In this document: positions 5,186-64,000 of the stretch, piece by piece
How the letters are laid out: each line of letters begins with the position of its first letter
Position numbering within the stretch: position 1 is the stretch's first letter
Source: Fontisphaera persica
GTDB lineage: Bacteria; Verrucomicrobiota; Verrucomicrobiia; Limisphaerales; Fontisphaeraceae
Direction of reading: 5' to 3'
Length of the DNA: 64,000 bases
NCBI RefSeq assembly: GCF_024832785.1
Contig: NZ_CP116615.1
Coordinates: 3,720,001-3,784,000 of the forward strand
Position numbers and translations under genes: made by a program
Notes under the pieces: generated by a model
The model's input: the letters and a program-made list of their open reading frames with translations, nothing else
Database searches by the model: none
Told to the model about the DNA's origin: nothing

Positions 5186-6226
5186 ATGGCTTACACATTG
5201 TACCTACCCAAAAATTATCGGCCGGTGCTCAACGTCCGGCAAACGGAGCACGCCATCAAGGCGTTGAAGGATTTTTTTGAGCTGAGCCTGTCCACGGAGT
5301 TGAATCTGACACGGGTCACGGCGCCGTTGTTTGTGAAGTCGGGCACCGGCATCAATGATGATTTGAATGGGATTGAGAAGCCGGTCTCCTTCGCGGTCAA
5401 GGAGATGAATGGGGACCGGGCGGAGATTGTGCAATCCCTGGCCAAGTGGAAACGGATGATGCTGGCGGATTTGGGATTTCAGCCGGGGTACGGGCTGTAC
5501 ACCGATATGAACGCAATCCGGCCGGATGAAAAACTGGACAACACCCATTCGTTGTATGTGGACCAGTGGGATTGGGAGCGGGTCATCACCGACCGGGAAA
5601 GGAATGTGGAGTTTTTGCGGAAAGTGGTGGAAAAGATTTACCGGACGCTGAAGCGGGCGGAGCATTTTATTTTCGAGCATTATCCGGAGATCAGGCCGGA
5701 ATTGCCGGAGGAAATCACCTTCATCCATGCGGAGGAGCTGCGGCAGCGTTATCCGCAACTGCCGCCGCGGGAGCGGGAAAATGCCCTGCTCAAAGAGGTG
5801 GGAGCGGCGTTCATCATCGGGATTGGGGGGCCGCTGGGGGATGGGAGCATCCATGACGGGCGCGCGCCGGATTATGATGACTGGATTACGCCGGGAGACC
5901 AGGGGAGACCAGGATTGAATGGGGATATTTTCGTTTGGCACCCGGTGTTGGAGTGTGCGTTTGAGCTATCGTCCATGGGCATAAGGGTCAGTCCTGCATC
6001 TTTAATGCAACAGCTCGAAATCCGCGGGTGTCTGGAGCGCCAAAACCTTTACTGGCATCGCCGTCTCCTCCGTGGCGAGCTGCCCTTGTCCATCGGGGGC
6101 GGCATCGGGCAGTCGCGGCTGTGCATGTATTTCCTGCGCAAGGCGCATGTGGGCGAGACTCAGGCGAGCTTGTGGCCGGAGGAAATGATGCAGGAATGCC
6201 GGAAGCATGGGATTGCGCTGTTATGA
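5186..6226 (+). CDS. asnA: Aspartate-ammonia ligase (asparagine synthetase A)
   Basis: A 346-aa cytoplasmic enzyme of the AsnA family, which makes asparagine from aspartate, ammonia and ATP using a class II aminoacyl-tRNA-synthetase-like fold. Family features seen are the N-terminal Y-x-P-x-N-Y-x-P-x-L, the V-x-A-P-L-F-V segment, D-D-L-N-G, the V-D-Q-W-D-W-E active-site stretch, and the G-G-G-I-G-Q-S-R ATP-binding motif near the C-terminus. The length matches the family (about 330-345 aa). An in-frame TTG at 5147 would add 13 unrelated residues, so I start at ATG 5186, which gives the conserved N-terminus. The gene stands alone between the secreted giant and a dehydrogenase. Confidence 0.95.
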   Translation: MAYTLYLPKNYRPVLNVRQTEHAIKALKDFFELSLSTELNLTRVTAPLFVKSGTGINDDLNGIEKPVSFAVKEMNGDRAEIVQSLAKWKRMMLADLGFQPGYGLYTDMNAIRPDEKLDNTHSLYVDQWDWERVITDRERNVEFLRKVVEKIYRTLKRAEHFIFEHYPEIRPELPEEITFIHAEELRQRYPQLPPRERENALLKEVGAAFIIGIGGPLGDGSIHDGRAPDYDDWITPGDQGRPGLNGDIFVWHPVLECAFELSSMGIRVSPASLMQQLEIRGCLERQNLYWHRRLLRGELPLSIGGGIGQSRLCMYFLRKAHVGETQASLWPEEMMQECRKHGIALL

Positions 6227-6346
6227 CGAGGGCCGGGGTGCCAAGGCGTCCATCGGGGTGGCCAGGATGGTGGCGGTGGGCAAGTCGCATCCTTGAATTT
6301 CTTGGATAGACATTGATTTTGCTTATGTTAGTAATTAATGTTGTAA

Positions 6347-6366
6347 ATTAGTTAAGAATAACTAAT
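6347..6366. promoter_or_regulatory. Inverted repeat in the AT-rich promoter region of the dehydrogenase gene
   Basis: ATTAGTTA (6347-6354), a 4-nt loop, then TAACTAAT (6359-6366) form perfect 8-bp arms, ending 12 nt before the ATG at 6379. The surrounding 6300-6378 stretch is much more AT-rich than its neighbours and includes a possible TTGCTT/TGTAAA promoter pair. The repeat could be an operator, but no regulator is linked to it. Confidence 0.35.
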
Positions 6367-6378
6367 AACGTGGGTTAT

Positions 6379-7188
6379 ATGACATTGCAAAATAAAGTGG
6401 TGGTCATCACGGGGGCTTCAGCCGGTTTTGGACAGGCGGCGGCTCTGGCTTTTGGGAAGTTGGGGGCCAGGATTTTTTTGGGTGCCCGGCGCATTCAGAA
6501 GTTGGAGGAAACGGTGCGGCAGGCGTTGGGGTTGGGATGTCCGGAGGCGCAGGCGCATTTTTTGGATGTCACACGGACGGAGTCGGTGGAGGAATATGTG
6601 GGATGGTTGAAGCAGCGGGTGGAGAAGGTGGATGTTCTGGTCAACAATGCTGGCGGAGCAAAAGGTTTGGAGCCGGTGGCTGAGGGGAAGGATGAGGATT
6701 GGGAGTTCATGTTGCAGGCGAATGTGCTGGGATTGCTGCGGATGACGCGGGCGGTGTTGCCGTTGATGGTGAACAATCCGGGCAGCACCATAATCAATGT
6801 GGGTTCGGTGGCGGGGCATACGGCGTATGAGGGTGGGGCGGCTTATTGCGCGGCGAAGGCCGGGGAGGCGATGATTACCAAGGCGTTGCGGCTGGAGCTG
6901 TGCGGTACGGGGGTGCGGGTGTGTTCGGTGGACCCAGGACTGGCGGAGACGGAGTTTTCCCTGGTGCGATTCAAGGGGAATGCGGAGCGGGCCAGGAAAG
7001 TTTATGAGGGGATGACGCCTTTGTGCGCTGAGGATGTGGCGGAGGCGATGGTGTGGGTGGCGGCACGTCCGGCGCATGTGTGTGTAAATGAGCTGGTGAT
7101 CACGCCGACGGATCAAGCGGCAATCCATAAGATTCATCGGCGCAAGGCAGATGGCCAGTCGGCAGGGAGTGGCGGAAGGGCGTTTTGA
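6379..7188 (+). CDS. Short-chain dehydrogenase/reductase, YdfG-like
   Basis: A 269-aa classical SDR. The Rossmann NAD(P) motif T-G-A-S-A-G-F-G is near residue 12. N-N-A-G-G is near 90. Ser in N-V-G-S-V-A-G and the Y-C-A-A-K dyad near 155-160 complete the catalytic triad. Closest in feel to the YdfG group, which oxidises 3-hydroxy acids or serine-type substrates; the real substrate is not visible. The tail after about residue 255 is low-complexity. A GTG at 6370 would add three residues; ATG 6379 is preferred. An AT-rich promoter region with an inverted repeat lies just upstream, suggesting its own regulated transcript. Confidence 0.85.
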   Translation: MTLQNKVVVITGASAGFGQAAALAFGKLGARIFLGARRIQKLEETVRQALGLGCPEAQAHFLDVTRTESVEEYVGWLKQRVEKVDVLVNNAGGAKGLEPVAEGKDEDWEFMLQANVLGLLRMTRAVLPLMVNNPGSTIINVGSVAGHTAYEGGAAYCAAKAGEAMITKALRLELCGTGVRVCSVDPGLAETEFSLVRFKGNAERARKVYEGMTPLCAEDVAEAMVWVAARPAHVCVNELVITPTDQAAIHKIHRRKADGQSAGSGGRAF

Positions 7189-7197
7189 GGGGTGGTT

Positions 7198-7213
7198 TGT
7201 TCCACGTGGAACA
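7198..7213. promoter_or_regulatory. parS-like centromere site 1
   Basis: TGTTCCACGTGGAACA is a perfect 16-bp palindrome and matches the known pseudomonad-type parS core bound by ParB. It begins 10 bp after the dehydrogenase gene, in the 7189-7439 spacer. The rest of that spacer holds only low-complexity repeat-like sequence (CCCTCACCCCGGCCCTC near 7280). Confidence 0.8.
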
Positions 7214-7439
7214 CAAAGGATGGGGCCGAGCTAAAATCCGCATGATTGGCCATTGGTTTTGTGCGGGCAGGTTTTTTTGCCCTCACCCCGGCCCTCACTG
7301 GGGGGAGGTGGAGCCGTGCTGCCAGTGTATGCAATGCAAACGCTTCCATCATCTTTACCCCACTGGAGCGGAATTGTCGGGGGTGTGGCGGCAATGAGGG
7401 GGTAGTGGTCCCCTTGCTCGCGTCGAGCAGAGGTACGGG

Positions 7440-9338
7440 TCAATGAGGAGTCGTGGTCCCCTGCCCTCGCTTCATCCAGACCAGGATGAGGCTGATGTCG
7501 GCAGGCGAGACACCGGAGATGCGGGCGGCCTGGCCTACGGTGACGGGGCGGATTTTGAGGAGTTTCTGGCGGGCTTCAGGTCGTAGGTTGGGGATGGTCT
7601 GGTAATCCAGCCAGGGGGGGATTTGTTTGTCTTCCAAGTTTTTGAACCGTTCGACTTCTGCTTCCTGGCGTTCGATGTAACCCTCGTACTTGATGGAAAT
7701 TTCCACTTGATAGGCGACGTCCGGCGGGAGGGACTCGTCCTTGTGGGGCAGTTTGGCGTAGGTCATTTCCGGCCGTTTGAGAATCTGGGCGAGGGTGACG
7801 GAGCCTTGGCGGACGGAATTGAGGCGAAGCAGCTCTTTTTGGATGAGGTCACGTTTGGCGGCAAATCGGCGGTAATTGCGTTCGGGCAGAAGGCCGATTT
7901 GATAGGCCAGCTCGGAGAGGCGCAGGTCGGCGTTGTCCTGACGGAGGAGGAGGCGGTATTCGGCGCGTGAAGTGAACATGCGGTAAGGTTCGGGGGCGCC
8001 TTTGGTGATGAGGTCGTCAATCAGCACGCCGATGTAGGCTTCATTACGTTTGAGGATGATGGGGTCCCTGCCCTGCAATCGGCGGGCAGCATTGATGCCG
8101 GCCATGAGTCCCTGGGCGGCGGCTTCCTCGTAGCCGGAGGTGCCGTTAATCTGGCCGGCGAGATAGAGATTACGGCAAACCTTGGTCTCGAGCGAGGGAT
8201 GAAGCTGCATGGGGTTGACGGCGTCGTATTCGACTGCGTAGGCAGGACGCATGATTTCGGCATTCTCACAGCCGACGATGGAGCGGACCATTTCAATTTG
8301 GACCTCGAAGGGCAGGCTGGTGGAGAAGCCGTTGACGTAGATTTCGTCGGTGGCAATGCCTTCAGGTTCGAGGAAAAGCTGCTGACGCTCCTTGTCTGGG
8401 AACTTGACGATTTTATCCTCGATGGAGGGGCAATAGCGAGGGCCGATGCCTTCGATGACGCCGGAGTAGAGGGGGGATTTGTGGAGGTTGGCGCGGATGA
8501 TTTCAGCGGTGCGCGGGGTGGTATAGGTGATATAACAGGCCATTTGGCCGCCGTTGCGTTCAAGGATGGAGCCTGGTGGATAGCGATGGGAGCGGCTGGG
8601 GTGGTTTTCCGGGGTGAATTGTTCCACGTGGAACAAATCCTCGAGCCAGTAGGTGAAGTAGGGGACGGGTTCATCGCCGGGTTGGACGGTGGTTTTGGAA
8701 AAATCAATGGTGCGGCGATTGAGTCTGGGGGGAGTACCGGTTTTGAGGCGGCTTATTTCCATGCCCAGTTCTTTGAGAGAAGCGGTGAGGCCGACGGCGG
8801 CCGCTTCGCCCAGGCGGCCCCCGGAGAGTTTATTCATGCCGATGTGCATGAGGCCGCGGAGGAAGGTGCCGGTGGTGACGATGACGGCTTTGGCATGGTA
8901 TTGGACGCCGAGCTCGGTTTCCACGCCGTGGACTGTGCCGTCGCGGATGAGGAGTTTCATTGCCTGGCCTTGCTTGCAATCGAGGCCTTCCTGGCGTTCG
9001 CAAAGCCATTTGAGGAAGAACTGGTAGGCTTTTTTATCGCATTGGGCGCGAGGGGCCCAGACGGAGGGGCCTTTTTTCGTATTCAACATGCGGAATTGGA
9101 GTCCGGTCATGTCGGTGGCGATGCCCATGGCACCGCCCATGGCATCAATTTCGCGGGCGAGGTGTCCTTTGGCCAGGCCGCCGATGGCTGGGTTGCAGGA
9201 CATTTGGGCGATGGTGTCGAGATTGATGGTGAGGAGGAGGGTTTGGCAGCCCATGCGGGCGGAGGCAAGGGCGGCTTCGACGCCAGCATGACCGCCGCCG
9301 ATGACGATGATATCGTAAGTTTTAGGATAAACGAACAT
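7440..9338 (-). CDS. mnmG: tRNA uridine-5-carboxymethylaminomethyl modification enzyme MnmG (GidA)
   Basis: A 632-aa flavoprotein that works with MnmE to install the (carboxymethyl)aminomethyl group on U34 of tRNA wobble positions. The FAD dinucleotide motif G-G-G-H-A-G-V-E-A-A is near residue 14. Signature stretches include S-C-N-P-A-I-G-G-L-A-K-G-H, G-T-F-L-R-G, L-K-T-G-T-P-P-R, and G-V-I-E-G-I-G-P-R-Y-C-P-S-I-E-D-K. The C-terminal R-I-S-G-V-S-P-A-D-I helix is present. Between P-Y-F-T-Y and C-Y-I-T-Y-T there are about 25 extra residues compared with E. coli MnmG, and this insertion encodes a parS site (8620-8635). MnmG is a classic neighbour of replication origins. Confidence 0.97.
   Translation of the reverse strand: MFVYPKTYDIIVIGGGHAGVEAALASARMGCQTLLLTINLDTIAQMSCNPAIGGLAKGHLAREIDAMGGAMGIATDMTGLQFRMLNTKKGPSVWAPRAQCDKKAYQFFLKWLCERQEGLDCKQGQAMKLLIRDGTVHGVETELGVQYHAKAVIVTTGTFLRGLMHIGMNKLSGGRLGEAAAVGLTASLKELGMEISRLKTGTPPRLNRRTIDFSKTTVQPGDEPVPYFTYWLEDLFHVEQFTPENHPSRSHRYPPGSILERNGGQMACYITYTTPRTAEIIRANLHKSPLYSGVIEGIGPRYCPSIEDKIVKFPDKERQQLFLEPEGIATDEIYVNGFSTSLPFEVQIEMVRSIVGCENAEIMRPAYAVEYDAVNPMQLHPSLETKVCRNLYLAGQINGTSGYEEAAAQGLMAGINAARRLQGRDPIILKRNEAYIGVLIDDLITKGAPEPYRMFTSRAEYRLLLRQDNADLRLSELAYQIGLLPERNYRRFAAKRDLIQKELLRLNSVRQGSVTLAQILKRPEMTYAKLPHKDESLPPDVAYQVEISIKYEGYIERQEAEVERFKNLEDKQIPPWLDYQTIPNLRPEARQKLLKIRPVTVGQAARISGVSPADISLILVWMKRGQGTTTPH
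8620..8635. promoter_or_regulatory. parS-like centromere site 2, inside mnmG
   Basis: TGTTCCACGTGGAACA again, extended by one symmetric base each side to the 18-bp palindrome TTGTTCCACGTGGAACAA. It lies within the mnmG coding sequence at about codons 234-240, in a segment absent from E. coli MnmG. It is 1.4 kb from site 1. Confidence 0.8.
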
Positions 9339-57817: not shown

Positions 57818-59500
57818 TTATTGGGCGAGGCGGATGACGCGATAAAAGGCGCGCGTGGCGGCGGGGCTGGCGTTGGTCCAGCCGACTTCGGTGATGTTGG
57901 CGCCGCCGGTGAAGCGGCCGTTGGGGGCATCCGTCCAGCGCGTCAGGTCCGTGGAGGATTGCACTTGGTAGATATAACCGGGGCCGGTTTGGAAGCGGAG
58001 GACAAGCTGGTCCCGGCGGCCGCCGTGGGAGGAGGCGGTGAATTTGAAGCCGCTCATGTTTTGGAGGCGGAAGGCGACGTCCGCCGGATAGCCGAGGGAG
58101 GCAAAGTCAAAGCGGCCGCGCGGGGCATGGCAGTCGCCGCATTGGAGGGCGTCTTCCTTGGGGGCGACCATGTGGTTTTGGACCCAGAACATTTCGGTGC
58201 GGAGGAAGCCGAGGATGCCGCTGTAGGTGCGGCCCACGGCGGCCTGGCCGGCGGCGAGGGCCTTGTTCCAGTCGAAGGCGCGCCAGTAGGCGTTGGTGTC
58301 GGTGGAACCGCTGGGGAAGAGGTGGGGGACGGCCAGGCGGTTGAGGCCGGCGTCGTAGGGTTGGATGCCGGTGAAGCGTTTGACGGGATAGATGCGGGCT
58401 TTGGCATCGAGGCGGTCCCCCTGGAGGGTGTTGATGCGGACCACCTGGTTGCTGCTCACGGGGTCATCGGCGGTGATGTAGTCCACCACGCCGTTGAACC
58501 AGACGTAGTTGGGGAGGACATTTTTGCTCCAAAGGAAGGAGCCTTTCTGGGTGTCGTAGATGACGGTGCCGTCAGGGCCTTTGACGGTCATGAGGGCGCC
58601 GTTGGTGTTTTTGACGCCGGCGGTGGACCAGTCCCAGTGCATTTTGGTGGGCTGGCCGCGGGCAAAGGCGGGGATGTGGCAGGTCTGGCAGGCGACGCGG
58701 GCGGTGTGGGCGTTGAGGCGCTGGGCCAGCAGCGGGTTGGCGGCATCGGCATGGGGGGCGCTGCCGTGGCATTTCTCGCAGGTGAGGGCGATGGCGTTGG
58801 TGCTCTGGGTGTAGGGCGAGCCGAGGACTTCATGGCGCGGGGCGTCGTCGGGGAGATGGCAGGTGGCGCAGGTGAAGTTCAGGCCGTTGGTGCCCATGTG
58901 CACATCCAGGGCGCGCGAGGGGTGGGTGAGGGTGGAGTCGAGGTCGCCGTGTTTGACGGCGTCGCCGCCGCCGCCGAAGAAGTGGCAGGCGCCGCAGGTG
59001 GCGCGGCTGGTTTTGCCGACGTTGCGGGCGATGTAAGTGAGGTCGGGGGGCTGCCAGAAGTTGCCGCTGCCGGCGGGAAACTCCTTGGGCGCGCCGATGA
59101 CGGGATAGCCGGCGCCGGTGGGGAATTTTTTGTAGGTGCCGGTGGTGTCGTGGCAGACGAGGCAGTCAATGGCGTTGGCGTTGTTGAAGTCGAAGCTGGC
59201 ATTGCTGTAACCCCAGCCGATGTGGCAACTGGTGCAGCGGGGTTCGTTGGAGCGGACGGCGATGCAGTAATTGTTGATGACGTTGTTTTTGCCGAGGCGC
59301 TTGCCGGTGGCGGGGTCGGTGTATTCCCAGCGCCAGTGGACGGTGTGCATGATTTCCCCGGCCACATTTTCATGGCACTGGAGGCAGGTGCGGGCGTCGG
59401 TGTACTGGGGGATGAATTGATGGACGGCGGCGGTGGCGGCGCGGGCGGCGGGCGCGGCCAGCGCGAGGGCGAGGGTGGCGAGGGCGAATACAGTTTTCAT
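57818..59500 (-). CDS. Octaheme c-type cytochrome, tetrathionate-reductase-like (OTR family)
   Basis: A 560-aa exported protein with a signal peptide (residues 1-22). It has eight C-x-x-C-H sites (C-L-Q-C-H, C-T-S-C-H, C-L-V-C-H, C-G-A-C-H, C-A-T-C-H, C-E-K-C-H, C-Q-T-C-H, C-G-D-C-H). Their spacing and the first block fit the octaheme OTR family, which reduces tetrathionate or nitrite/hydroxylamine-type substrates in the periplasm. The last 75 residues or so form a beta-rich domain (Y-Q-V-Q-S-S-T-D-L-T-R-W) ending in a hydrophobic basic tail. The substrate cannot be deduced. ATG 59500 is chosen for the signal peptide. It diverges from the nine-heme operon. Confidence 0.8.
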   Translation of the reverse strand: MKTVFALATLALALAAPAARAATAAVHQFIPQYTDARTCLQCHENVAGEIMHTVHWRWEYTDPATGKRLGKNNVINNYCIAVRSNEPRCTSCHIGWGYSNASFDFNNANAIDCLVCHDTTGTYKKFPTGAGYPVIGAPKEFPAGSGNFWQPPDLTYIARNVGKTSRATCGACHFFGGGGDAVKHGDLDSTLTHPSRALDVHMGTNGLNFTCATCHLPDDAPRHEVLGSPYTQSTNAIALTCEKCHGSAPHADAANPLLAQRLNAHTARVACQTCHIPAFARGQPTKMHWDWSTAGVKNTNGALMTVKGPDGTVIYDTQKGSFLWSKNVLPNYVWFNGVVDYITADDPVSSNQVVRINTLQGDRLDAKARIYPVKRFTGIQPYDAGLNRLAVPHLFPSGSTDTNAYWRAFDWNKALAAGQAAVGRTYSGILGFLRTEMFWVQNHMVAPKEDALQCGDCHAPRGRFDFASLGYPADVAFRLQNMSGFKFTASSHGGRRDQLVLRFQTGPGYIYQVQSSTDLTRWTDAPNGRFTGGANITEVGWTNASPAATRAFYRVIRLAQ

Positions 59501-59586
59501 GGCAGCGGGGGTTGGGTGGTTGAGCGCGTTCATCATGGCAGTTGCGATAGAGGGCGTCCCTGGCCGGGCGGTCCCGGGGCGGGGCG

Positions 59587-59990: not shown

Positions 59991-61802
59991 ATGAATACCT
60001 TGGCATCTGGTTTTCGGCAACAAGCGCGCCCGGCGGTTCGCCGCGGTCTGGCCTATGGCCTGGCCTTCCTGGCGGCAGGCTGGGCGGCGGCAGTTTACGG
60101 GGCGGCGCACGGCGACCCGTGGGAAATTCATTTGCGGGAGCCGCATGAGGGCGGCATGCCGGGGCGGCCCATCATCACCAGCATCCGCACGACGACCAAC
60201 CAACAGGTGGTGGTGACGTGGCGGGGGTTTGTGGACCCGGTGACGCCGTTTTTGCTGCAGGGCAACACGGGGTTGCGCAGCAACGGATGGCAGACGCTGG
60301 CCACGACGTATGGCTTGAGCGCCACGGTGCCGCTGGGGGACAACGCCACGTTCCGAATTGTGGCGCCCTCGCCCCAGTATGCGGGGAGCACGGAGTGCTC
60401 GGCGTGCCATCGGGGCACGCACTCGCGGTGGGCGGAGACGATGCATGCGCATGCGCTGGATTCCCTGAAACGAATCAACATGCACAACAACAGCCGGTGT
60501 CTGCCGTGCCACACGGTGGGGTACGGGCTGCCGACGGGCTACAAGAGCGAGACGGAGACGCCGGACCTGGCGAATGTGGGCTGCGAGAGCTGCCATGGGC
60601 CGTCGGCGGCGCATGCGGCCAATCCGTTTGACCCGACGACGCGGCCGGTGAAGGAGCTGGCGTCGCAGTTGTGCGGCGGGTGCCATACGGACGCGCATCA
60701 TCCGACGTTTAATGAATGGGAGACGCATTTGCATGCGGAGGTGAACGAGGAAATAGCCGCCGGTTTTCTGGGGGCGGAGGCGACGTCGCTGGGGCGGATG
60801 AATTCGTGCGGGGCGTGTCATTCAGGGAGCGTGCGGTATGCGATGTTGAAGGAGCCGGCGACGACGAATTCGCTGCCGGCGCTGATGACCAATGTGTTTC
60901 ATCTGCCGCCGGGGGTGTCGGCGGGGCGCGAGGCGGCGGAGATTGGGATAACGTGCGTGGTCTGCCACAGCTCGCACACCAAGACGGCGCATGGGTATCA
61001 GTTGCGGTATCCGATGTTCTCGACCAACGCGTACAACATGGTGACGTCGGGGACCAACATGGTGCAGAAGGGGTACGATGCGAATGTGCAGGTGTGCGGC
61101 CAGTGCCACAACGGGCGCGGGGCGGATCCTTCCGGGACGTCGCGTCCGCCGCATCATTCGCCGCAGTATAATATACTGGTGGGGAATCTGGGGGTGGTGC
61201 CGACGAACGCGCCGGCGCCGATGTCACCGCACTGGCAGTTGGAGAAGCAGTGTGTGGACTGCCACATGCAGAAGGTGACGGTGACCAACCCGACGGCCAA
61301 CAATCCCAATCACACGGGGCACAATTTCAATCCGACGCAGACGTTTGACAAGTGCCGCGACTGCCACACGGGGCAGGATGACGAGTGGATGGAGCTGTTG
61401 ATTGAGTTCACCCAGGAGGTGACGCGCAACAAGATTGCGGAGGTGAAGAGCAATCTGGTGTTGTGGGCGACGACGAAGGCGCCGGCGGCCTTGCGGAATG
61501 CGGGCCGGGTGGTGCGGGTGGTGAACGGGGTGCGGGTGACCAACAGCGTGCCGGAGCTGGCGTGGGAGTTCAGCACGCCGGGGCAATTGTCGCCGGCGCC
61601 GGCGGGGGCGCTGTCGTGGACGGGGCCGAGCGCCACCGTGCAGAACAATCCCACGAATGGCTTGCCGCAGGCCATCAAAGAAGCGCGCTTCAACCTCTAT
61701 CTGGTGGAACACGACGGCAGTTATGGCGTGCATAACAACGCTTATGCGCGGTATTTGTTGCGGGTGGCCAACGACAAGGTGAAGGCCGAGCTGGCCAAAT
61801 AG
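59991..61802 (+). CDS. Nine-heme c-type cytochrome
   Basis: A 603-aa exported protein with a signal segment (about 15-38). Residues about 40-125 form a small beta domain (V-V-V-T-W, F-L-L-Q-G-N-T-G-L, G-W-Q-T-L-A) like the tail domain of the octaheme protein. The heme part has nine C-x-x-C-H sites: C-S-A-C-H, C-L-P-C-H, C-E-S-C-H, C-G-G-C-H, C-G-A-C-H, C-V-V-C-H, C-G-Q-C-H, C-V-D-C-H, C-R-D-C-H. It has no lipobox. It probably carries electrons in the periplasm or at the cell surface. ATG 59991 is used; GTG 59985 is possible. The next cytochrome begins 45 bp on. Confidence 0.88.
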   Translation: MNTLASGFRQQARPAVRRGLAYGLAFLAAGWAAAVYGAAHGDPWEIHLREPHEGGMPGRPIITSIRTTTNQQVVVTWRGFVDPVTPFLLQGNTGLRSNGWQTLATTYGLSATVPLGDNATFRIVAPSPQYAGSTECSACHRGTHSRWAETMHAHALDSLKRINMHNNSRCLPCHTVGYGLPTGYKSETETPDLANVGCESCHGPSAAHAANPFDPTTRPVKELASQLCGGCHTDAHHPTFNEWETHLHAEVNEEIAAGFLGAEATSLGRMNSCGACHSGSVRYAMLKEPATTNSLPALMTNVFHLPPGVSAGREAAEIGITCVVCHSSHTKTAHGYQLRYPMFSTNAYNMVTSGTNMVQKGYDANVQVCGQCHNGRGADPSGTSRPPHHSPQYNILVGNLGVVPTNAPAPMSPHWQLEKQCVDCHMQKVTVTNPTANNPNHTGHNFNPTQTFDKCRDCHTGQDDEWMELLIEFTQEVTRNKIAEVKSNLVLWATTKAPAALRNAGRVVRVVNGVRVTNSVPELAWEFSTPGQLSPAPAGALSWTGPSATVQNNPTNGLPQAIKEARFNLYLVEHDGSYGVHNNAYARYLLRVANDKVKAELAK

Positions 61803-61847
61803 GCCGGGACGGTGAGTTTGGGCAACACTCAACGGGTGAGGCCGCTT

Positions 61848-62681
61848 ATGTTAAAACGAATATTGGACGGAATACCGGGCGGGGGCTGGGGCCTGGCGGC
61901 GGTGGGGGGGCTGGCGTTGCTGGCGGCCTCCTGCGCCACGGTGACGCGCACGGTGGTGGTGCCGCCGGACATTCCGGGAGCCAAGTATGTCGGCTCCAAG
62001 GAATGCGAGCAGTGCCACGAGGAAATCTACAAGGATTTCCAGACGGCGGCGCACGCGCGGCTGATGGCCAAGGGGCCGAATGCCCTGAACATGGGGTGCG
62101 AGAGCTGCCACGGGCCGGGCAGTTTGCATGTGGAATCGGGCGGGGAGCGGCGGATGGCGAGCCACAATTTGACGCTGGAGGCGACGGTGGTGAGCGACCG
62201 GCCGACGATTTTGAATCCGCGGAAATCGAGCGAGACGTGTTTCACCTGCCACCTGGACAAGCGGGGGGCGTTTCAGACGCCGCATCATCATCCGGTGCCG
62301 GAGGGGCGGATGAGCTGCACGGACTGCCATGATCCGCACAAGGGGCCGGCGACGCGAGGCGGGGGCACGGCGCTGCTGGCGCAGAACGAGGCGTGCCTGA
62401 AGTGCCATGAGACGCAGCGGGGGCCGTACGTGTTTGAGCATGCGGCGATGCGGGAGGGGTGCACGACGTGCCATGACCCGCACGGGACGGTGAATGCGAA
62501 GATGCTGACGGCGCGGAATGCGAATTTGTGTTTGAAGTGTCATTTCCAGCAGGTGACCCCGGGCAAGATTCTGATTGGGGGAGTGGATCACAAGATCAGT
62601 TTGCAGCAGGGCACGTGTTGGACCGCGGGATGTCATGAGGCGGTGCATGGCTCGCGGGTGAATCCGTCGTTGCGGTTTTAA
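61848..62681 (+). CDS. MtrA/DmsE-like multiheme lipoprotein cytochrome
   Basis: A 277-aa lipoprotein. The signal ends in the lipobox L-A-A-S-C (Cys near 29). It has seven C-x-x-C-H sites (C-E-Q-C-H, C-E-S-C-H, C-F-T-C-H, C-T-D-C-H, C-L-K-C-H, C-T-T-C-H, C-L-K-C-H) and one C-x4-C-H (C-W-T-A-G-C-H) near the C-terminus. It ends V-H-G-S-R-V-N-P-S-L-R-F, like the tail of MtrA/DmsE and Geobacter conduit cytochromes, which sit inside an outer-membrane barrel. The next gene is that barrel, starting 19 bp later. ATG 61848 gives the lipoprotein signal. Confidence 0.88.
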   Translation: MLKRILDGIPGGGWGLAAVGGLALLAASCATVTRTVVVPPDIPGAKYVGSKECEQCHEEIYKDFQTAAHARLMAKGPNALNMGCESCHGPGSLHVESGGERRMASHNLTLEATVVSDRPTILNPRKSSETCFTCHLDKRGAFQTPHHHPVPEGRMSCTDCHDPHKGPATRGGGTALLAQNEACLKCHETQRGPYVFEHAAMREGCTTCHDPHGTVNAKMLTARNANLCLKCHFQQVTPGKILIGGVDHKISLQQGTCWTAGCHEAVHGSRVNPSLRF

Positions 62682-62699
62682 CCTCCCGGAATACATCCC

Positions 62700-64000
62700 A
62701 TGAAAACCACAAAGCTTTCCCGGGGCCGGTCAGTGAACACGCTGGGCTGGTTGTTGGTGTGCGGGGGTTTAACGGCGGCCTTGGGCGCCCAGGCCGCCGA
62801 AGCCACCGCCGCCGCGGACGCCAAGTCGCTGGAGGAGAAGCTGGAGGCGTACAGCAACTGGATAGAGTTCTCCGCGGGGGGATTGACGCTGGATGGCAAT
62901 CGCGGGGCCTTCCAGCAGCGGCAGCAGATACGCCGCCGGGTGTTTGGGGGGATGGAGGACTTCCATTATCAGCGGGATTTGGGGAAGAAGGTGACGCTGT
63001 TGATGGATGGGCGGGTGTTGTTTGACAATCAGGACTACAAGGCTCGGCTGGAGATTACCAAGGAGGACGTGGGCTTTTTGCGCGGCGGGCTGACGTATTA
63101 CCGGACGTGGGACGATGGGAGCGGCGGGTTTTTCCGGCCCACGGAGGGGTGGTACGATTTGTATGATGACGCGCTGGCGCTGGACCGGGGCGAGATTTGG
63201 GTGGAAGGCGGGCTGCGGTTGAAGAAGCTGCCGCATTTGACGTTGAAGTACACGCATCAGATGCGGGAGGGTTTGAAAAGCTCGACGTCGTGGGGGTATG
63301 TGCATCCTTACGGGTTGGGGCCGGTGCGGGGCATCGTGCCGTCGTTTTATGATATTGATGAGGAGCGGGACATCTGGCAGGCCGACTTGCGGCACACGGT
63401 GGGCAAGTTCACGCTGGGCGCCGGGGTGCGGTATGACCGGAGTGACCTGGACAATGCGCGCAAGATGCGGCAATGGCCGGGTGAGGCGGCGGACCGGCGG
63501 GTGACGCAGCGGGAGACGGTGCGGTCGGAGGCCTGGAGCGCGCATGCGTTTGTGGAGAGCCAGTTGCACAAGAAGCTGTTTTTCTCGACGGGTTACGGGT
63601 ACACGACGCTGGACAGCGACGTGGGAGGGAGCCGGATTTACGGCAACGATTATGATGTGCAGTTTGTGCCGGCGCTGGCGAGCGGGCTGGGCTTTTACGG
63701 GTTGAGCGGGGGTTCGCAGTTGAAGGACCACGTGGCCAATTTGAACCTGATGTACAACCCGTGGCCGAATTGGACGCTGGTGCCGTCCTTCCGGCTGCAG
63801 CGGACGGGGATGGACAGCGAGGCGTGGTATTTCCAGACCGGCGTGGGGCCGGTGACGCCGGTGAGCGCGCGGAGCGAGCGGGAGGTGCTGGATTTGGCGG
63901 AGCAGTTGGAGCTGCGTTACACGGGGTTGACGAACTGGGTGTTTTACGCCCGCGGGGAGTGGATGCAGGGCGAGGGCGACCTGACAGAGATTGGCGCGGC
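62700..64000 (+). CDS. Outer-membrane beta-barrel of a porin-cytochrome conduit (partial)
   Basis: The gene runs off the window (at least 433 codons). It starts with a signal peptide (residues about 1-33, A-L-G-A-Q-A-A) and continues as alternating amphipathic strands rich in aromatic residues (Y-S-N-W-I-E-F-S-A-G-G, F-H-Y-Q-R-D-L, L-T-L-K-Y-T-H, T-L-G-A-G-V-R-Y-D, L-F-F-S-T-G-Y-G-Y-T-T-L-D-S-D). These are typical of MtrB/PioB-type barrels that surround a multiheme cytochrome. Its place just after the MtrA-like cytochrome supports that role. The N-terminal Cys-x-x-Cys of Shewanella MtrB is not seen. Start ATG 62700 lies 19 bp after the lipoprotein stop. Confidence 0.78.
   Translation, partial: MKTTKLSRGRSVNTLGWLLVCGGLTAALGAQAAEATAAADAKSLEEKLEAYSNWIEFSAGGLTLDGNRGAFQQRQQIRRRVFGGMEDFHYQRDLGKKVTLLMDGRVLFDNQDYKARLEITKEDVGFLRGGLTYYRTWDDGSGGFFRPTEGWYDLYDDALALDRGEIWVEGGLRLKKLPHLTLKYTHQMREGLKSSTSWGYVHPYGLGPVRGIVPSFYDIDEERDIWQADLRHTVGKFTLGAGVRYDRSDLDNARKMRQWPGEAADRRVTQRETVRSEAWSAHAFVESQLHKKLFFSTGYGYTTLDSDVGGSRIYGNDYDVQFVPALASGLGFYGLSGGSQLKDHVANLNLMYNPWPNWTLVPSFRLQRTGMDSEAWYFQTGVGPVTPVSARSEREVLDLAEQLELRYTGLTNWVFYARGEWMQGEGDLTEIGA

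Follow-up and report, generated by a model that had tools for sequence, protein, structure and literature searches.

The window analysed here comprises 64,000 bases (3720001-3784000) of the single-contig, 4.73 Mb genome of Fontisphaera persica, and towards its end three co-directional genes form an operon that very probably builds a 'wire in a sheath' carrying respiratory electrons through the outer membrane. The first gene, cytA (59991-61802, + strand, ATG start), encodes an exported, OcwA-like nonaheme cytochrome c of 603 amino acids with nine CXXCH motifs. After a gap of 45 base pairs (bp) it is followed by cytB (61848-62681, + strand, ATG start), encoding an octaheme lipoprotein of 277 amino acids, with seven CXXCH motifs and one CX4CH motif, that is a shortened homolog of MtrA. 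The gene for an outer-membrane beta-barrel begins 18 bp further on (62700-64793, + strand; 5701-7794 of locus L001), and 433 of its 697 codons lie inside the window (62700-64000). Genes beyond the window are numbered in continued window coordinates. The exported nonaheme cytochrome, the multiheme lipoprotein and the start of the barrel, which the initial annotation had reported with these two gaps, were all found again at the same positions; reading past 64000 completed the barrel and showed further genes of the chain just outside the window. These are cytC (64876-65199, + strand), which encodes a monoheme cytochrome c of 107 amino acids (PF00034), and, beyond a strong terminator-like hairpin (65262-65292, + strand), an ImcH-like gene (65360-66841, + strand) and a CbcL-like gene (66869-69022, + strand). 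Promoter sites predicted in a scan of the operon were no more numerous than in shuffled sequences.

CytB, the proposed wire, carries eight hemes by motif count, the CX4CH being the last motif, and a lipobox (...LAASC). In a profile search it matched the MtrA chain of the MtrCAB complex (6R2Q_A) with an expect value (E) of 2e-40, and hhalign aligned it at 99.95% probability with the decaheme MtrA of another Verrucomicrobiota genome, hemes 3-4 being those missing from CytB. These two comparisons bore out the MtrA/DmsE-like character first ascribed to the lipoprotein. The score against TIGR03508, the decaheme MtrA/DmsE family, was 161.9 bits versus a cut-off of 192.2, so CytB falls outside that family; judged by its sequence, it is a true MtrA homolog shortened by two hemes. 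In 104 CytB sequences, drawn from both types of the system described below (A and B), the invariant histidines were the eight of the motifs and exactly eight others. This fits eight bis-histidine hemes, and thus a wire without a catalytic site, which would be inserted into the lumen of the barrel. A lipobox-like site was present in 113 of 116 CytB sequences, and the three exceptions (...PACR, ...SACS and ...TACS) may also be lipoproteins.

The structure of the barrel was predicted for L074, its closest public homolog (59% identical), from an alignment of 75 sequences. The AlphaFold model was confident (predicted local distance difference test, pLDDT, 87; predicted template modelling score, pTM, 0.83) and consisted of 26 strands, the first ones short, with a helix in the first extracellular loop, which joins strands 1 and 2, a disordered N-terminal stretch of 53 residues and no plug domain. 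MtrB, a chain of the Mtr complex solved as 6R2Q, has 26 strands, of which the first four are short, and a cap helix within the strand 1-2 loop (PMC7198977), and the model shows this 26-stranded fold, common to MtrAB, MtoAB and PioAB. The best Foldseek match in the PDB was MtrB itself (6R2Q_B; E 4e-16; template modelling (TM) scores 0.62/0.67), and a TonB-dependent or alginate-type barrel, set beforehand in the initial annotation as the result that would speak against a conduit, was not what the completed gene gave. The root-mean-square deviation was 7.2 over the whole barrel, meaning that barrel and MtrB agree in shape, not in detail. Since the wire partner CytB is in turn homologous to MtrA, the model makes common descent of the barrel and MtrB likely. 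Membership of the MtrB_PioB family by sequence was rejected: PF11854 had no match in this genome, and the profile of the barrel showed no similarity to that of verrucomicrobial MtrB. The same PF11854 model scored 351 bits on the real MtrB of another Verrucomicrobiota genome.

Among solved structures, the profile search related CytA to OcwA (6I5B; E 4.5e-33), to the multiheme cytochrome 6QVM (E 8e-24) and to cytochrome c554 (E 1e-15), with matches to the NrfA family as well, and Pfam recognised c554 and NrfA modules in it. In OcwA (6I5B), c554-like hemes 1-4 are joined to NrfA-like hemes 5-9 (PMC6703420); with nine hemes, both modules and a homologous sequence, CytA can be assigned to the OcwA family, as far as such comparisons reach. 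The N-terminal beta domain noticed earlier on the nonaheme partner is present, at about residues 60-124. The nine motif histidines and seven others were fully invariant in the CytA family (44 sequences) and an eighth was found in 98%; with only seven or eight further conserved histidines for nine hemes, one or two hemes are left without a conserved distal histidine, a pattern of open hemes that a reductase such as OcwA would show. CytA is thus regarded as a probable extracellular terminal reductase, which would sit on the cell surface. Four secretins and cytochrome c assembly proteins are encoded in the genome, and the secretins are a possible export route for it. To our knowledge, OcwA-type surface reductases have so far been known from Gram-positive bacteria, and no report of one in Verrucomicrobiota was found in the open-access literature.

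The ImcH-like protein, with three N-terminal transmembrane helices, a NapC/NirT-like part, and CX3CH and CX2CH motifs, fits the description of ImcH, which combines such helices and such a part with an atypical CX3CH plus 5-9 CX2CH motifs (PMC6295460). The CbcL-like protein has 11 hemes and a b-type cytochrome domain; its hydropathy profile shows four clear segments versus about six transmembrane helices expected. In the same survey mtrAB or mtoAB were not found next to imcH (PMC6295460); in contrast, an MtrAB-like pair adjoins the ImcH-like gene here.

The barrel family was detected in 134 of 196 genomes of the order Limisphaerales, versus 17 genomes, most of them from one family of the same class, in a broader sample of 289 Verrucomicrobiota genomes; it is therefore frequent within this order and rare outside it, reaching Opitutaceae and Spartobacteria. 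Two classes of barrel could be distinguished: type A, to which that of the window belongs (38-93% identity), in about 76 genomes, as counted over the matches listed, and type B, in at least 80. In at least 74 out of 80 named public loci the gene immediately preceding that of the barrel was cytB; a cytA relative was present in 41 of the 80, imcH in 27 and a cbcL match in nine. Because no heme motif or distal histidine of CytB varies among its homologs and cytB and the barrel gene are so regularly adjacent, the arrangement is not due to chance. Homologs of CytB (59%), the barrel (35%) and ImcH (47%) also lie in one cluster of a genome taken as that of Opitutus terrae PB90-1 (PMC3048395). In many type-A loci (e.g. 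L037, L038, L076, L088 and L148) the operon has as neighbour, on either strand, a gene for a larger cytochrome (8-9 hemes, about 730-820 amino acids) that is about 25% identical to CytA and possibly a second surface cytochrome; none was seen beside the window operon. One genome from another family of the class, G356, carries bona fide MtrAB (L154 and L174; PF11854, 351 bits; decaheme MtrA) and, in addition, a diverged barrel of the family studied here with an octaheme partner.

A second conduit locus, of type B, lies outside the window in the same genome (4702106-4705340; 7106-10340 of locus L032) and consists of a gene for an octaheme lipoprotein followed by that for a porin of 807 amino acids, in which a PSCyt1 heme domain at the N-terminus (PF07635, 59 bits) is fused to the same kind of barrel. 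All 20 further type-B loci examined showed this arrangement, and the heme motif and a methionine (M103) were invariant. If the barrel is oriented as barrels usually are, its heme domain would lie on the periplasmic side, a placement also argued for Cyc2 (PMC8406198); type B resembles a hybrid of Cyc2 and MtrAB. Searches of the open-access literature gave no report of a PSCyt1-porin fusion. At locus L172, in a more distant member of the Verrucomicrobiota (G321), a type-B-like barrel without PSCyt1 is followed by a tetraheme cytochrome, which may represent the state before the fusion.

The operon is best explained as a trans-outer-membrane porin-cytochrome electron conduit leading from the quinone pool to the surface, and we consider this explanation highly probable. 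The conduit already proposed in the initial annotation is supported by the MtrB-like model of the barrel and by the homology of CytB with MtrA; the outward direction, the identity of the acceptor and the formation of a complex are what we infer. Quinol in the inner membrane would be oxidised by the ImcH-like and/or the CbcL-like protein, and the electrons would cross the periplasm, perhaps carried by the small cytochrome c that cytC encodes, and reach CytB, which would run through the 26-stranded barrel as an octaheme wire anchored by its lipid. From CytB they would pass to CytA, the nonaheme OcwA-like reductase at the cell surface, for the reduction of an external acceptor (humic quinones, Fe(III) oxides or flavins).

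Several observations weigh against this explanation. The barrel had no sequence match in Pfam, NCBIfam or PDB, and its profile was related to the verrucomicrobial MtrB profile at only 1.2% probability, so that the comparison with MtrB failed at the level of sequence and profile and held at that of predicted fold; moreover, the model is that of the homolog L074, alone and without CytB. The signal peptide of CytA is a plain one, lacking a lipobox, and the protein might stay in the periplasm; its own structure model was poor (pLDDT 62, pTM 0.47) and was not used. In many loci cytA, imcH or cbcL is missing nearby. Finally, heme-copper oxidase matches in the genome indicate that extracellular respiration would not be the sole option of the organism. 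These matches would also agree with a conduit working inward, with electrons drawn from an external donor such as Fe(II), as in PioAB and MtoAB, and the CbcL/MtoC-like protein acting as quinone reductase, homologs of which are known in Fe(III) reducers and Fe(II) oxidisers alike (PMC6295460). However, ImcH homologs are so far known from Fe(III) reducers alone (PMC6295460) and CytA resembles a terminal reductase, and the inward direction is considered unlikely.

The c554 and NrfA modules of CytA could instead be those of a periplasmic reductase of nitrite, hydroxylamine or sulfur compounds, with the barrel serving as porin for the soluble substrate and CytB merely feeding CytA. OcwA itself reduces nitrite (PMC6703420), and a gene for an octaheme cytochrome of the tetrathionate-reductase family (57818-59536, - strand; TIGR04315, 547 bits versus a cut-off of 375) adjoins the operon. 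Nevertheless, it is CytB, not CytA, that constantly accompanies the barrel, the ligand count leaves no open heme in CytB, and the barrel resembles MtrB, the lumen of which holds a cytochrome; a periplasmic reductase is accordingly judged very improbable. Least of all do we expect the barrel to be a TonB-dependent or other nutrient transporter placed beside cytochrome genes by chance, for which the probability seems almost negligible. TonB-dependent receptors did come next in the Foldseek ranking (E 4e-11 or worse among the top 50), but with TM scores of 0.35-0.48 versus 0.62 for MtrB, and they have 22 strands against the 26 of the model, which also lacks a plug. Together with the near universal adjacency of cytB, the strand count, the missing plug and the fold ranking largely refute the identity as transporter. 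The neighbouring octaheme gene, divergent from the operon, encodes a C-terminal beta domain that resembles the tails of other secreted proteins here.

Returning to the outward conduit, its parts may be compared with known systems, and in general terms the operon agrees with porin-cytochrome conduits (Pcc) in that a porin-like outer-membrane protein and a multiheme cytochrome are encoded together. It shares with MtrCAB of Shewanella (6R2Q) an MtrA-homologous wire, a 26-stranded sheath with a helix in the loop of strands 1-2 and a separate multiheme surface partner; it differs in that CytB is a lipoprotein with eight hemes instead of 10 and a CX4CH as last motif, that no similarity to MtrB can be detected in the sequence of the barrel and that the surface partner is not of the MtrC/OmcA type. 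The OmbB-OmaB-OmcB system of Geobacter is similar by its description, a porin clustered with an octaheme periplasmic and an outer multiheme cytochrome (PMC4245776), and by having ImcH and CbcL as proposed inner-membrane oxidases, although OmcB is a dodecaheme protein. OcwA of Thermincola potens (6I5B) has, like CytA, nine hemes, a c554-like front and an NrfA-like back; however, OcwA is found on a Gram-positive surface, whereas CytA has an outer-membrane conduit as partner and, in addition, a beta domain at its N-terminus.

Conduits had been said in the initial annotation to be described mainly in Proteobacteria and relatives. This has to be corrected, as He et al. proposed in 2017 a porin-multiheme cytochrome conduit in Verrucomicrobia, Opitutus terrae included; in their clusters a porin with at least 20 predicted strands stands beside an octaheme cytochrome, sometimes with an extracellular multiheme cytochrome, and no homology to the systems of Geobacter and Shewanella was seen (PMC5615132). 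The present operon shares with those clusters a porin with 20 or more strands beside an eight-heme cytochrome and has homologs in the genome taken as that of Opitutus terrae; it differs by the homology of CytB with MtrA, the MtrB-like predicted fold, the OcwA-like CytA and the linked ImcH, CbcL and monoheme genes, and the electron pipeline looks complete here, unlike that of the related cluster predicted in 2017. Of the new variant suspected at first, the conduit idea itself is thus not new; the novelty lies in the MtrB-like fold, in the OcwA-type partner and in the ImcH/CbcL modules, and further in the sister system with its PSCyt1-fused porin.

We see an even chance that Limisphaerales possess a conduit branch of their own, in which an MtrA that is shortened and lipid-anchored is combined with a strongly diverged barrel of MtrB fold. 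It would occur in two forms, one feeding an OcwA-type surface reductase, as in the window, and one whose porin itself bears a PSCyt1 heme domain at the N-terminus. Soils, peat and freshwater commonly harbour members of this order and their relatives, most of which have not been cultured and which are as a rule portrayed as degraders of polysaccharides; if such a branch exists, extracellular respiration would be a common trait of the order and not an exception. The system would join two lines thought to be separate, the surface reductase of Gram-positive type and the MtrAB wire, and an MtrB fold that has outlasted recognisable sequence would mean that sequence-based surveys miss such barrels. 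With a conduit, quinol oxidases and a surface reductase as candidates, respiration on humic substances or iron minerals becomes testable in these bacteria.
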